Shown in pieces: positions 16,130 through 21,483 of a stretch of 64,000 bases of DNA. Each line of letters begins with the position of its first letter. Within the stretch, counting starts at the first letter, position 1. Location: the NCBI RefSeq assembly GCF_031598375.1, contig NZ_CP123872.1, positions 2,104,501 to 2,168,500 on the forward strand, given 5' to 3'. A program made the translations under genes and the position numbers. Origin of the DNA: Temperatibacter marinus (GTDB lineage Bacteria > Pseudomonadota > Alphaproteobacteria > Sphingomonadales > Kordiimonadaceae). A model generated the notes under the pieces. That model saw only the letters and a list, made by a program, of their open reading frames with translations, ran no database searches and was not told where the DNA came from.

Positions 16130-16921
16130 ATGAAGTCTATTCAAATAAAGCTTTTTACATGCTTAAGCATGTGCACCTTTTTTGCGCATATAGTTCACAC
16201 GCAAGATGTAGCGATTGAGGTAAAAGATATTCATGATATTTCTTTTGTTACCCATTCTGTAGATCAACGGTCTGCCTCCTATATTGATGGCATCCTGCGG
16301 GGACAAGAAAAAAGTGGGCGTCGCGCCATTGACGTGGAAATTATTCAAGAATTGAAGAAACGATTAGGCCATAAAAAGCCTCTCACCAATATCGCTTTCA
16401 CACGCGCAATCCGCACTCTTGAAAAACAACCTGGCTATGCACTCTTTAACGTGCTGAGAACACCGGCTAGAGAGTCCAAATATAAGTGGGTAGGCCCCCT
16501 GCAGCATTATAAAACATATTTCCACGATTCAGCACAGAAACCATCTTTGATTGAAACTATGGATGATGCGAAGAAGGTAAAAGGTGTTTGTGTGGTTCGG
16601 GGGAATGCACAGCATGATTTGCTTAAAAAGCTGAATTTTAATAATTTAATCATGGTATCAAAATATACGCAGTGCATAAGCCTGGTCATGCAAAACAAAG
16701 GCGTGATTATGCCCTCAAGTGCGAGCGCAGCTTATTTTGAAAAAATGAAGGTTAAAGACCTTGTGAACAATACAGAGGTGGTTGTTACAGAATTTGATGG
16801 CTACCTTGCCTTTTCAAAATCAACTCCTGATTATCTTATTAAGCAAGCTCAAGAAACCCTTGATGAGATTAAAGCAGATGGAACTTTTGAAGCCATTGTT
16901 AAGAAATATGGGGTCAATTAA
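16130..16921 (+). CDS. Periplasmic solute-binding protein-like (family 3 fold)
   Basis: From the ATG at 16130 the product has 263 residues; a TTG three codons earlier is possible. It has a signal peptide (to about residue 25) and the overall pattern of amino-acid-type binding proteins: AIRTLEKQPGYALFNVLRTPARE in the first lobe, a crossover, and TLDEIKADGTFEAIVKKYG at the end. That last segment is a hallmark of SBP family 3 proteins. No transporter permease is nearby, so it may be a stand-alone sensor or an orphan binding protein. The ribosome-binding site is weak. The ligand is unknown. Confidence 0.65.
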   Translation: MKSIQIKLFTCLSMCTFFAHIVHTQDVAIEVKDIHDISFVTHSVDQRSASYIDGILRGQEKSGRRAIDVEIIQELKKRLGHKKPLTNIAFTRAIRTLEKQPGYALFNVLRTPARESKYKWVGPLQHYKTYFHDSAQKPSLIETMDDAKKVKGVCVVRGNAQHDLLKKLNFNNLIMVSKYTQCISLVMQNKGVIMPSSASAAYFEKMKVKDLVNNTEVVVTEFDGYLAFSKSTPDYLIKQAQETLDEIKADGTFEAIVKKYGVN

Positions 16922-17054
16922 GCAGGTCTGCTCTGATAAGGTACTCTTTCTCCTGCGTCCATCTCTCTTTAATAGCATGTTTCGACCTAATGTTAGGCAG
17001 GTCATATAGTAGATAGACCTTATATATAACTGAGTTTCGTTTTATCTGACTGTT

Positions 17055-17100
17055 AATTCCCTGATTACGGTTCAGGCAATTCCCTGTTTACCGCTCAGGC
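17055..17100. repeat. Two adjacent 23-bp repeats
   Basis: Units at 17055-17077 and 17078-17100 both begin AATTCCCTG and end TCAGGC or CTCAGGC, with four differences. The second unit overlaps the 3' end of the small minus-strand gene. Arrays of AATTCCCTG/CAGGGAATT are, from memory, common around decayed transposons in alphaproteobacteria; that link is unproven here. Confidence 0.6.
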
Positions 17101-17363
17101 AAATTCAAGAGTATGGCTTTTTGCTTAAGCGAACTTAGTATTTTTCCGCGTCCAGAATGCGCGAGCAACATTTTGCATTTTGCATTTTTGTTTGCAAAAT
17201 AACAGGAGCTCCTTGAACTATTATATGTCAGAATCTCTGCGCCTGTGTTCGGTGATTTTAGCGGCGCTAAAGACTTCTCAACATATTGTTTTGTATGGTA
17301 ATTTTGTAATATTTCTTCTATGGAAGTTAAGGGCGTGACATTGCCCACTGGTCTGAAATACAT
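17088..17363 (-). CDS. Unrecognised 91-residue protein behind a sigma54 promoter
   Basis: I do not recognise this protein. The preferred start is the ATG at 17363, which has GAGGAG eight bases upstream; an ATG two codons earlier is only two bases from that site. The N-terminal half (MYFRPVGNVTPLTSIEEILQ and on) looks like a normal folded or helical segment. The C-terminal half has two Cys, is basic and ends within a 23-bp repeat, so its end may have been changed by an insertion. There is no signal peptide or membrane segment. It lies downstream of the LuxO-like gene and just after a sigma54-type promoter, so it is a likely target of that activator. The transcript could also act as RNA. Confidence 0.5.
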   Translation of the reverse strand: MYFRPVGNVTPLTSIEEILQNYHTKQYVEKSLAPLKSPNTGAEILTYNSSRSSCYFANKNAKCKMLLAHSGRGKILSSLKQKAILLNLPER

Positions 17364-17405
17364 AATCATTACTCCTCAATACTCAACGCTCCCTCTGGTA
17401 TAAGA

Positions 17406-17421
17406 GCAATGCTCATGCCAA
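17406..17421 (-). promoter_or_regulatory. Sigma54 (-24/-12) promoter
   Basis: On the minus strand the sequence reads TTGGCATGAGCATTGCT. GG (17419-17418) and GC (17407-17406) are separated by exactly ten bases. It matches the consensus TGGCACG-N4-TTGCW at all but one position. The predicted start is an A near 17394, leaving a 31-base leader with GAGGAG before the ATG at 17363. A LuxO-like sigma54 activator is encoded immediately upstream. Confidence 0.75.
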
Positions 17422-17475
17422 TGTTTTACAAAATGCTTTTTTGGCTGCTTCGTTCTTAGATTTTACGCGCGTAGA

Positions 17476-17505
17476 TTTGATCCCCTGAATGAGTAGGAGA
17501 TCAAA
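17476..17505. promoter_or_regulatory. Inverted repeat, candidate enhancer for the sigma54 activator
   Basis: TTTGATCCCCT and AGGAGATCAAA form 11-base arms (one mismatch) around eight bases. The centre lies about 96 bases upstream of the predicted sigma54 start, where enhancer-binding proteins usually bind. No T run follows on the minus strand, so it is unlikely to be a terminator for the luxO-like gene. A perfect 10-base palindrome TACGCGCGTA lies beside it at 17464-17473. Confidence 0.45.
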
Positions 17506-17577
17506 GTGTCTTAGAGTTTCATATGCTAGTTTAAGGTCATAAATACGATTAAGGTTAGGGCTAGTGCATGAGGCGAT

Positions 17578-18960
17578 TTACAATTTCTGCCATTCTTCTT
17601 TTTTCCTATATATTGTAGAAGGGCTGATGCCTAGTGTCTTTGCTGCTAAAGGAATTGACCCGCTGCAAACCCTGATACGTTCTTCAATCACTTCTTTTTC
17701 TATGTCTGTGAGGGGCCTTAAATGGCCATTATCATGACCCTTCACTTCCTCTGGCATTTCTGTTTTTTCTTCTTTAAAGATGTCGTCGCCTGTCATGGAA
17801 GGAAACATAGAAGGAGTTACGAGTTTACCTGTATGCAAGACAGCGATATTGCGAATTGTGTTTTGCAATTCCCGCACATTTCCGGGCCATGAATAAGAGG
17901 CAAGAAAAGCTTTGGCCTTCGCATCAAATCCTGTGAAGCTTTTATTTTCTTCAATGCTATATTTCTTGAGAAAATGTTCAGAAATTTCTTGAATGTCTTT
18001 CTCACGGTCTTTTAGGTTGGGTAAGTGGATGGGCACAACATTTAACCGGAAATAGAGATCCTCCCTGAAACGGCCTTCACGGACCTCTTTAATAGGATCT
18101 CTATTGGTTGCACATATGACGCGCACATCAACTCTTTCTGTTCGGCTGGTACCGACAGATTGAATTTCTGATGTTTGCAGAAATCGTAAGAGTTTTGATT
18201 GTAGGTTCAGATCTAATTCACACAATTCGTCTAAAAATAAAGTACCGCCATTGGCTTCTTTCGCAGCTCCTTGGCGATCACTGATGGCTCCAGTGAAAGA
18301 GCCCTTTAAGTGCCCGAATAGTTCAGATTCAAGAAGGTCTTTAGGAATAGCGGCGCAGTTTACAGGGACGAATGGTTTTCGAGCGCGGGGGCTGGATTTA
18401 TGAATTGCTTCTGCGCAAACTTCTTTACCAGTGCCGGAACTTCCAAGAATGATAACAGTTGCTTTTGAGGGAGCAACATTTTCAATCGTGCGATAGACCT
18501 TTTGCATCACACGGCTAGACCCGATGAATCCTTGGAAATTGGCCAACTGAGAATCTGTCCTTATTTCTTCTAGGTGATCTCGGAGTTGAATGCGCTCTAA
18601 TGTATGAGACACAGTCATGAGCATACGATTATCTGCGAACGGTTTGACAAGATAGTCTAAAGCGCCAAGCTTCATAGCTTGGATTGCCTTATTAATGCTT
18701 GCATCTGCGGTTATAACAATGGCTGGAATTTCATGAGGCGTCCCGAGGTTGCCCTCAAGGAAGTCCAAACCATTCCCGTCAGGTAAGTTTAGGTCTAATA
18801 ACATGAGATCATAAGAAGTCGTTGATAGCTTTTCTCTTGCTTCAGATAGTGTTGCTACGGTGTCTGCTTTATAGCCCGCGGATTTTAAATGCTGGCTATA
18901 AAGTAAAGACATAGAGAGAGTGTCTTCTACAATTAATATATTAATCATCTGGTTTTTCAT
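17578..18960 (-). CDS. LuxO-type sigma54-dependent response regulator
   Basis: The 460-residue protein has a receiver domain (residues 6-115; phospho-acceptor Asp56 in LLLDLNLPDG), a sigma54-activating AAA+ domain (about 140-370) and a Fis-type helix-turn-helix at the end (PLAAKTLGISPSTIYRKKEEW). Walker A is GSSGTGKE. Long stretches match Vibrio LuxO as I remember it, for example VEDT at the start, NFQGFIGSS, GKEVCAEAIHKSS and LLRFLQTSEIQ. The sigma54 contact loop reads GSFTGA and not GAFTGA. The start codon overlaps the HPt gene by 20 bases, so both are translated from one mRNA. It should be the end point of the relay encoded here. Confidence 0.9.
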   Translation of the reverse strand: MKNQMINILIVEDTLSMSLLYSQHLKSAGYKADTVATLSEAREKLSTTSYDLMLLDLNLPDGNGLDFLEGNLGTPHEIPAIVITADASINKAIQAMKLGALDYLVKPFADNRMLMTVSHTLERIQLRDHLEEIRTDSQLANFQGFIGSSRVMQKVYRTIENVAPSKATVIILGSSGTGKEVCAEAIHKSSPRARKPFVPVNCAAIPKDLLESELFGHLKGSFTGAISDRQGAAKEANGGTLFLDELCELDLNLQSKLLRFLQTSEIQSVGTSRTERVDVRVICATNRDPIKEVREGRFREDLYFRLNVVPIHLPNLKDREKDIQEISEHFLKKYSIEENKSFTGFDAKAKAFLASYSWPGNVRELQNTIRNIAVLHTGKLVTPSMFPSMTGDDIFKEEKTEMPEEVKGHDNGHLRPLTDIEKEVIEERIRVCSGSIPLAAKTLGISPSTIYRKKEEWQKL

Positions 18961-19336
18961 CTTTAATTTCCACTTGTTTCAATTCACTCAAAGCGAGATA
19001 GATATTGTCATTCAGCCATTTGTGAAGGTCTTTTGTTTGCTTCATCTTATCTTGAGTGAAGCCGTCACACAGTTGCTCAGTTTTTTTATAAAGGCGTTGA
19101 AATCCAAAAGTGCCGCTAATGGTTTTTGCCCTGTGGAATATGGCATGAAGTATCTGAGGATTATCATCTTCAGAAGCTTCTATAATGTCATTTAAAATGC
19201 TGCATAAATCCAATTTGATTTGATTGATGATGACCTTTTGACTTTCTTCGTCCAAGGGAAAAAGAAGCTGTTGAAATGTATAAAGATCGAGCACTGGTTC
19301 AGTCTCAATCACTTCATTCATAGATGGTATTTTCAT
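18941..19336 (-). CDS. HPt phosphotransfer protein (LuxU-like)
   Basis: This small all-helical protein (131 residues from the ATG; an in-frame GTG at 19357 would add seven) contains the HPt signature HRAKTISGTFGF. Its phospho-accepting His is residue 68 counting from the ATG. HPt proteins pass phosphate from a hybrid kinase receiver to a response regulator. The gene overlaps the LuxO-like regulator gene by 20 bases and is divergent from a hybrid kinase gene that has no HPt domain of its own, so the role as the middle relay step is strongly implied. Neither start has a clear ribosome-binding site. Confidence 0.82.
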   Translation of the reverse strand: MKIPSMNEVIETEPVLDLYTFQQLLFPLDEESQKVIINQIKLDLCSILNDIIEASEDDNPQILHAIFHRAKTISGTFGFQRLYKKTEQLCDGFTQDKMKQTKDLHKWLNDNIYLALSELKQVEIKDEKPDD

Positions 19337-19544: not shown

Positions 19545-20093
19545 ATGTTAGGTATAGTGTTTACCGAATTCCAAGAATATATCGAAGAGACATATTCTCC
19601 GGAATTGTATGATGATGTAATCGAGGATTGTAGCGACTTAAAAAGTCAAGGGGTGTATACTTCGATAGGACGCTACGATTATTCTGAGATGTTAAAGTTG
19701 GTTAACACACTTAGTGAGCGAACCTCTATTTCTACACAAGATTTAATTAAAACCTTTGGCCACCATCTTTTTGGCCGATTTCAATGTCTTTATCCCGAGT
19801 TTTTCGAGGGAATCTCCGGCTCTTTTGAGTTTTTGAAAACGATTGAAAATCATATTCATATTGAAGTGAAAAAACTATATCCCGAGGCTGAATTACCAAC
19901 CTTTGAATTCGAACAAGAAAGCGAGAAAGTTCTCATTTTTGACTATCAATCCCAAAGGCCTTTTGCTGACTTGGCCGAGGGGTTACTGCGGGGCTGCATG
20001 GCTTATTATCATGAAGAAATAGCCATCCAACGTGACGATATTGAGATGCAAGATACTCAATATCATACGCGATTTATTCTAGAGCAGCGATAG
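19545..20093 (+). CDS. hnoX: H-NOX heme nitric-oxide/oxygen-binding protein
   Basis: The 182-residue protein is a stand-alone heme sensor of the H-NOX (HNOB) family. It starts [17 protein letters not shown], the usual opening. The proximal heme ligand is His105, seven residues before the YP of [10 protein letters not shown], the same spacing as in guanylate cyclase. The heme-propionate motif YxSxR is YQSQR at 134-138. In facultative bacteria such proteins bind NO and control a kinase or cyclase encoded next door; here a hybrid kinase starts ten bases downstream. AAGGAG lies before the ATG. Whether it also binds oxygen cannot be read from the sequence. Confidence 0.92.
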
Positions 20094-20103
20094 GACTGGA
20101 AAT

Positions 20104-21483
20104 ATGGACCAAACGATAAGATTAGAAAAGCGGGCTACACGCGAGCGGCTCGCACGAAAACAAGCAGAACAATTGTTAACGGATAAAAGCCGCGCTTTAT
20201 ATCAGAAAAACCAAGAGCTTGTTGAAATGAGAGACTCACTAGAAGAGACCGTTGATAGTAGAACTCTAGATTTACAAGATAAAATCAGAGAACTCATAGA
20301 GCTGCAGGCTGAGTTAAAAGAGGCAAAAGAGCAGGCAGAAGAGGCCAGTCGATTGAAATCACGATTTGTAGCAGCCATCAGTCATGAAATAAGAACGCCG
20401 CTGAATGGCATCATCGGTAGCTTAGACGTTCTGTCTTATGAAGAGCTACCGCTCAAAGCACAGGAACTTGTCACCCTTGCAATGAAAAACGGCGAGACTT
20501 TGAATGTTCTACTTACAGATATTTTGGACTTTTCAAAATTTGAAGAAGCATCATTTACACTGGATGAAGAGTGTTTCTCGCTTCAAGAATTGCTCACATC
20601 TCTACAACAATTTTGGGCGCCTCAATGTTCAGAGCATGCAATTAAATTTGATGTGAAATATGAAGGACAGAACGGTGATATTTTCAAAGGAGACCCCGGT
20701 AGAATTCGTCAAATTCTTAATAACTTCATTTCGAACGCTGTCAAATATGCAGACTCTGAAGCAATTGAGGTCTTAGCAAAAGTCATGAAGCAGAAACAAG
20801 GAGGCAGCCTTCTATATTTAGCGGTCAAAGATTTTGGTGTTGGTCTTTCTCAAGATGAGAAGGATATCATTTTTAACGCCTTCACTCAGTCAGAAAAAGT
20901 AGACCCTGTTAAAGTTCAAGGATCAGGTCTTGGGCTTTCTATCTGTAAGCAATTAGCAACCTTAATGCAGGGGTCTGTTGGGGTGAGAAGCTATCCAGGC
21001 CTTGGGTCTCAATTTTGGTTGCGTATTCCTGCGGAACGTGTTTCTGATGCGGCAGCGATACAAGAAATCCCTTCTTTTGAAATGCAGCCCTTTGGCGATT
21101 TGTTAAGTTTCACCCCTAAAGTATTAATTGTAGAAGATGTTATTTCTAACCAAATGATTGTCAAAATGATGTTGGAAAACATGGGGATAGCTGTACGCGT
21201 GGCAAGTACAGGAAAAGAAGCCTTTCATGCGTCGCGAGAAGAAAATTTTGATGCCATCTTTATGGATATTGGCTTGCCAGATGTGGACGGTGTGACTGTG
21301 ACAAACTCTATAAAGAAAGATGTAAAGAATAAGAATTCTGAAACACCTGTGATTGCTTTTACTGCCTATGGGATGGAAGAGGAGAAGCAGCGTTTCCATC
21401 AAAATGGGATGACAGGGCTTATTCGCAAGCCAGTTAAACATGAAGATATCTATAAGGGCTTGATGGATATCTTAGTGCGCTAG
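20104..21483 (+). CDS. H-NOX-associated hybrid histidine kinase
   Basis: The 459-residue cytoplasmic protein has no membrane segment and no sensor domain of its own. A coiled coil (about 1-85) leads into HisKA with [15 protein letters not shown], an ATPase domain ([26 protein letters not shown]) and a C-terminal receiver ([18 protein letters not shown]; phospho-acceptor in [11 protein letters not shown]). It is ten bases behind the H-NOX gene and surely co-transcribed, so H-NOX should act as its sensor in trans. It resembles the Vibrio HqsK/HnoK kinases. The lack of an HPt domain fits use of the divergent HPt gene. Confidence 0.9.

Follow-up and report, generated by a model that had tools for sequence, protein, structure and literature searches.

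What does a sigma54 promoter located directly behind the gene of a LuxO-like activator transcribe, and from which site is it activated? The question is posed by a stretch of 64,000 nucleotides of the Temperatibacter marinus genome (NZ_CP123872.1, positions 2,104,501 to 2,168,500; hereafter 'the window'), in which such a promoter, TTGGCATGAGCATTGCT, precedes an open reading frame (ORF) of 91 codons on the minus strand (Table 1). We consider it likely that this unit is derived from the promoter and gene of pssE, that it stands beside a duplicated set of regulator genes and is activated in LuxO-type fashion from an enhancer located downstream of the promoter within codons, and that its product is a 91-residue fragment of PssE, which is perhaps a relic.

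The promoter exhibits the GG-N10-GC spacing along with consensus flanks, agrees with 13 positions of the 14-position sigma54 consensus used for scoring, and is both the top-ranking sigma54 site and the sole one scoring so high in the window; an rpoN gene is present in the genome. In 60 first-order Markov copies of the window, sites with 13 matches occurred at a mean of 0.08, at least one being found in 5 of the 60 copies. Genome-wide (3.18 Mb), the pattern TGGCAYN5TTGCW occurs at 16 sites, this promoter among them, versus 3 for the reversed control pattern. Moreover, the sequence aligns with a sigma54 promoter located in the pssD-pssE gap of the exopolysaccharide cluster, both in this genome and in ten relatives, that is, with the promoters of all 11 pssE orthologues (defined by at least 50% identity; 30 loci were retained out of 36 matching genomes, the other 19 being distant homologues). 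The sigma54 box lies 56–58 nt from the ATG in all 11 orthologues and 58 nt from it in the window. No such box was detected within 200 nt upstream of any of the 19 distant homologues, several of which form part of longer open frames (of as many as 504 codons) in which such a box would not be expected, and the 11 genomes with the pssE promoter are precisely those, out of 29 in the family, that possess the close activator clade described below. Judged from these sequence comparisons, the promoter in the window is real and is derived from that of pssE. Its strand and spacing, as well as a predicted transcription start at 17394 (set here at 12 nt beyond the C of the -12 element), agree with the initial annotation, which had also placed a GAGGAG 31 bases after the start; this ribosome-binding site is in fact located at +18 to +23, and it is the ATG that is 31 nt away.

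Table 1. Features of the locus and its surroundings, with the basis for each assignment.
Feature	Position	Strand	Basis
sigma54 promoter (-24/-12) TTGGCATGAGCATTGCT	17405..17421	minus	consensus match and alignment with the pssE promoters of 11 genomes; predicted start 17394
Leader inverted repeat (weak form), expected to mask the ribosome site solely in read-through RNA	17369..17409	minus	folding; strong and covarying in relatives
Ribosome-binding site GAGGAG	17372..17377	minus	8 nt upstream of the ATG at 17363
ORF, 91 codons, truncated and diverged PssE paralogue	17088..17363	minus	homology to PssE; itself unmatched in Pfam and NCBIfam
Second, weak LuxO box site at +159 (3 mismatches)	17192..17204	minus	register of the orthologues' second box
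LuxO box ATGCAAAATGCAA (1 mismatch), +178 of the ORF, probable enhancer	17173..17185	minus	register with orthologues
Two tandem 23-bp units across the stop codon	17055..17100	minus	sole occurrence in the genome
Initially annotated palindrome, chance-level, role doubtful	17476..17505	unstranded	tile comparison and orthologues
LuxO-like sigma54 activator (receiver, AAA+, Fis-type helix-turn-helix)	17578..18960	minus	domain matches, tree
Probable HPt protein	18941..19333	minus	gene order and exopolysaccharide-cluster counterpart; no Pfam match of its own
H-NOX protein (HNOB)	19545..20093	plus	domain match
Hybrid histidine kinase (HisKA, HATPase, receiver)	20104..21483	plus	domain matches
Qrr-like small RNA gene, outside the window	G000:C1:557448-557542 (L220:796-890); relatives L238-L266	minus	sigma54-like promoter and LuxO boxes

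The ORF behind this promoter matches sequences in 24 of 59 searched genomes at E ≤ 1, and the matches below 1e-3 (self excluded) all fall on one gene in 11 genomes, including its own (E 1e-7 to 5e-4). This gene resembles pssE (PF04101 exceeds its cut-off, and NCBIfam PssE reaches 109.8 bits versus a cut-off of 120) and comes after a pssD-like gene, both being part of an exopolysaccharide cluster that also encodes an exosortase-family protein. When aligned with a profile of the 11 PssE proteins, the ORF covers 80 columns without gaps (28% identity, probability 96.4, E 1.3e-9). Its domain is incomplete: the ORF stops before the invariant EHRNDHQ stretch, of which there is no trace downstream, and since the C-terminal half is thus missing, the 91-residue product would hardly be an active enzyme. 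Truncation via a dispersed repeat, for which the common CAGGGAATT element had been suspected, was ruled out because the tandem unit at the stop codon is found nowhere else in the genome. A single-sequence structural model was uninformative (predicted local distance difference test, pLDDT, 42.3). Outside the enhancer codons, the ORF agrees with this genome's pssE in 26, 37 and 22 of 70 codons at the first, second and third codon position, respectively (shuffle P 0.02, 5e-5 and 0.28), and among 3000 neutral drifts to the same identity, run without indels, 31 remained stop-free. Conservation of second codon positions together with the rarity of stop-free drifts indicates that the ORF diverged under protein-level constraint; known from one genome, it may have been either full-length or already short while diverging.

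A truncated pssE copy that is dying after duplication, with its promoter and box not yet decayed and its transcript useless, would have the very origin and promoter described above and differ in its product alone, and we regard the chances of such a relic as evenly balanced. It is favored by the missing C-terminal half, the decay of a second LuxO box, the odd tandem repeats at the stop codon, the confinement of the ORF to one genome, and a scan of 16900–17600 that revealed no terminator-like site. On the other hand, promoter, ribosome site, start and all 91 codons are intact, and both the strong signature of constraint at the protein level and the scarcity of stop-free drifts are at odds with simple decay. 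Taken separately, translation of the ORF appears somewhat probable, while a product that is useful today is the less probable case.

As to the site of activation, the enhancer bound by LuxO is TTGCAWWWTGCAA (excerpts of PMC10162802). All 11 pssE orthologues contain this box in their coding sequence at +159 or +178 (exact in 9, with one mismatch in G004 and two in G001), and the ORF in the window carries it at the same register (Table 1). Within two mismatches, the box is absent from the coding region of all 19 distant homologues. Exact boxes occur at two places in this genome, one of them in pssE, and 0 to 5 times per genome in 15 relatives, the reversed control yielding 0. Since 1.28 boxes like that in the window are expected per 64 kb by chance, it is the register that constitutes the evidence. 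These observations suggest the intragenic conserved box as the likely docking site of the activator, in place of the palindrome proposed initially.

Alternatively, the intragenic boxes might be an accident of the conserved peptide FA-x-x-IA-x-CK, whose codons resemble the box, with the true enhancer located elsewhere. When synonymous codons were resampled, P ranged from 0.003 to 0.061 per row (window, 0.012), and values of up to 0.06 for a single row would accord with such an accident; yet all 12 rows lean the same way. Fisher's combined value for the 11 orthologues is 2e-10, which is overstated because the rows are related. Codon choice favors the LuxO box beyond what the protein requires. 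The same box is also found at other sigma54 promoters of the system, and in none of the 19 other homologues, though their protein sequence differs too. Hence, we consider a mere accident of the peptide improbable.

One such further place is the region between the divergent sigma54-like boxes of the exopolysaccharide cluster, where a LuxO box is present in G008, G011, G015, G018 and G022; none was found there within one mismatch in G001 or in this genome. In addition, a LuxO box is located upstream of the sigma54 box of the H-NOX gene in 7 of 8 relatives scanned, G001 being the exception (L058:8963-9058; L099, L101, L102, L103, L105, L107), and autoregulation of H-NOX is probable in those 7 relatives. 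For T. marinus, autoregulation was rejected: neither of its H-NOX genes has this arrangement, the copy of the exopolysaccharide cluster having a two-mismatch LuxO box without a sigma54 box. The arrangement is likewise absent from G002 and, in both G008 and G011, from the second H-NOX gene.

Several observations weigh against the proposal that the unit is driven from its intragenic box to yield a PssE fragment: (i) the ORF is truncated and known from a single genome, much as would be expected of a relic; (ii) the window's box is not rare by itself; (iii) its second box has decayed to three mismatches; and (iv) the combination of sigma54 and LuxO boxes is found at neither H-NOX gene of this genome.

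The initial annotation had instead assigned the enhancer role to the palindrome, in combination with a product that would be a small or dual RNA like qrr. The inverted repeat does exist: its arms (17505-17495 and 17486-17476) are complementary at 10 of 11 positions, and its center is 96.5 nt upstream of the start, a usual distance for an enhancer. However, 23 of 336 tiles of 190 bp from the same window contain an equal or better inverted repeat, the palindrome is not a LuxO box, and upstream of the pssE orthologues no counterpart was found (GATCAA/TTGATC within 500 nt; a single lone TTGATC in 11 rows). Its role as an enhancer is thus doubtful and was rejected. Regarding the product, the coding frame is in line with the protein-coding part of the initial proposal, while a small RNA gained no support, since the unit matches neither an Rfam family nor a Qrr-like model built here and the terminator scan was negative. 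We thus deem the combination of palindrome and RNA very improbable.

A locus that looks like a Qrr-like RNA gene, shared across the family, is located outside the window at 557 kb. There, the exact LuxO box that lies outside pssE (557653) is adjoined by two boxes with two mismatches, and a sigma54-like box, CTGGCACGCAGCTTGTA, lies about 85 nt away, with the core ACTCGACCCCCAATCG behind it. The surrounding 21-base pattern, with up to three mismatches, is present in all 29 family genomes (38 sites versus 1 in the control). Of 30 loci read, 28 have a sigma54-like box scoring at least 10/14 at 61–69 nt before the core, mostly with TTGTA at -12; this box was taken as the best in a 90-nt stretch, without requiring GC at -12, and is hence favored by the procedure. 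The two remaining loci (one each in G002 and G028) have no convincing promoter. Of the 28 promoter-bearing loci, 26 have upstream LuxO boxes within two mismatches, often near -97, -120 and -139. A set of 28 rows, chosen by the 21-base pattern, folds as one hairpin with the core in the loop region, and double changes are seen in 7 of the 18 pairs. Rfam returned only sub-threshold matches for nine loci, some of them over the RNA (best there Thr_leader, 29.9 versus 55 bits), and a class-wide search of 385 genomes retrieved, apart from this genome, a single marginal match (E 0.007). The reverse complement of the core, used for finding targets, has 13 sites including itself versus 12 in the control, the best other site being within a coding region. 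The RNA is perhaps driven by the family's second LuxO-like clade. A further LuxO-like activator gene, in G001, is directly preceded by a small open frame, in front of which lie a sigma54-like box, CTGGCACGCCCGTTGCC, and several LuxO boxes (L222:950-1260).

The region between promoter and ATG merits attention as well. In 10 of the 11 pssE orthologues, an inverted repeat of -17 to -26 kcal/mol, mostly followed by a T run, is located between the -12 element and the ATG (L189-L198, pssD-pssE gap). In an alignment of 12 rows, of which 11 are distinct, pairing holds for 88% of the cells, and the 15 double changes seen were reached by none of 500 shuffles. The left arm lies, except for its last pair, upstream of the predicted start, so that the hairpin could form in read-through RNA only. 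In the relatives, the repeat would thus act against read-through as a terminator or a lock on the ribosome site, from which the activated transcript escapes, with one hairpin arm encoded by the promoter itself and the gene insulated from read-through. This genome's pssE is devoid of the hairpin (-4.9), and the leader in the window retains it weakly (-11.5, z -2.0); the stretch of RNA starting at 17394 and ending at the ATG has no fold alone and, with 27 more nucleotides, one of -10.1.

The regulator genes beside the unit (Table 1) suggest how it may be controlled; neither the H-NOX and kinase genes, nor the pssE homology and the intragenic box, had been recorded in the initial annotation. Counterparts of all four genes, in identical order, conclude this genome's exopolysaccharide cluster. 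The activators of the two sets share 72% identity and are sisters in the tree (support 100/98), which indicates that the set in the window is a lineage-specific duplicate. HNOB, hybrid kinase and activator of a putative H-NOX phosphorelay are recognized by their domains, and the probable HPt is placed by gene order and by its cluster counterpart, itself a sub-threshold Hpt match. The clade of both activators is present in 11 of 29 searched family genomes (rows G028 and G001 were flagged for long branches), and HNOB proteins were found in 10 of these 11 and in one further family member, G002, but not in G028, whose genome is 76% complete. G008 has a second H-NOX gene (L022:3858-4451, minus strand) across the exopolysaccharide cluster from the first, next to response-regulator genes and another kinase, and G011 likewise has a second HNOB match. 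For the window activator, LuxO is the best NCBIfam family (552.5 bits versus a cut-off of 800); since it remains below the cut-off, we term the protein LuxO-like. Six recognition-helix residues are needed by LuxO (excerpts of PMC11407668), 5 of which are present, by eye, in the activator's SPSTIYRKK. Among the 80 loci listed for the activator query against the genome contigs, identity was at most 55%.

The regulator set probably senses nitric oxide (NO). H-NOX would sense NO and set the hybrid kinase, and phosphate would pass via HPt to the LuxO-like activator, as domains and gene order suggest. Bound to the intragenic LuxO boxes, some 200 nt downstream from the promoter, the activator would then contact RNA polymerase-sigma54 by looping, such that transcription begins near 17394. 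As this start is at the end of the left arm of the leader repeat, the ribosome site would be accessible in RNA made through the activator but masked in read-through RNA, an effect expected to be strong in relatives and weak here. Binding, phosphate flow, NO control, transcription and product function are steps that we infer, and NO might act on expression in either direction. The initially proposed direct control by the adjacent activator is borne out insofar as the unit is probably a direct target of a LuxO-like activator, given a promoter shared with 11/11 orthologues and a box in register; the activator involved may be any of the three LuxO-like proteins of this genome (window, exopolysaccharide cluster and 1104 kb; at least 46% identical over their length), which could share the box.

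It is tempting to speculate further that an NO-sensing phosphorelay was duplicated with one target, which turned into a small dedicated protein, produced only while the activator is switched on, with the enhancer in its codons, and modulating PssD/PssE or the exopolysaccharide machinery, although we consider this rather unlikely. The locus connects an exosortase/exopolysaccharide cluster outside Vibrio with H-NOX sensing and LuxO-type activation, provides a conserved and directly testable case of a probable sigma54 enhancer inside coding sequence, and exemplifies a regulator set and one target that were copied jointly and then diverged. Searches of open-licence literature, as judged from listings and passages, brought up no paper on the locus, an intragenic LuxO box or the 557-kb RNA, which speaks only weakly for novelty.

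Sigma54 enhancers in a downstream position have precedents, for example those of flagellar activators such as FleQ, with which the present system shares an activator site downstream of the promoter; here, other activators and genes are involved, and the site is located about 200 nt past the start, in codons, and in register in 11 genomes. Among the closest counterparts is the H-NOX/HqsK-LuxU-LuxO circuit of Vibrio harveyi (excerpts of PMC3759921), which, with qrr, likewise combines H-NOX with a kinase, HPt and a LuxO-type activator with its LuxO box (excerpts of PMC3759921 and PMC10162802). In contrast, the target here is a pssE-like coding gene, the box is intragenic, and the activator is below the NCBIfam LuxO cut-off. 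In V. fischeri, HnoX-HahK-SypF/LuxU-SypG control the syp polysaccharide (excerpts of PMC12369376), so that an NO sensor and a sigma54 activator are again placed over polysaccharide genes; the present system differs in its genes, in a site within coding sequence, and in its duplicate with a truncated target. Finally, the PrsK-PrsR system of PEP-CTERM/exosortase loci also links a sigma54 activator to exosortase and exopolysaccharide genes (excerpts of PMC1569441), whereas the activator described here is LuxO-like, scoring 362.7 against the PrsR cut-off of 502.6.
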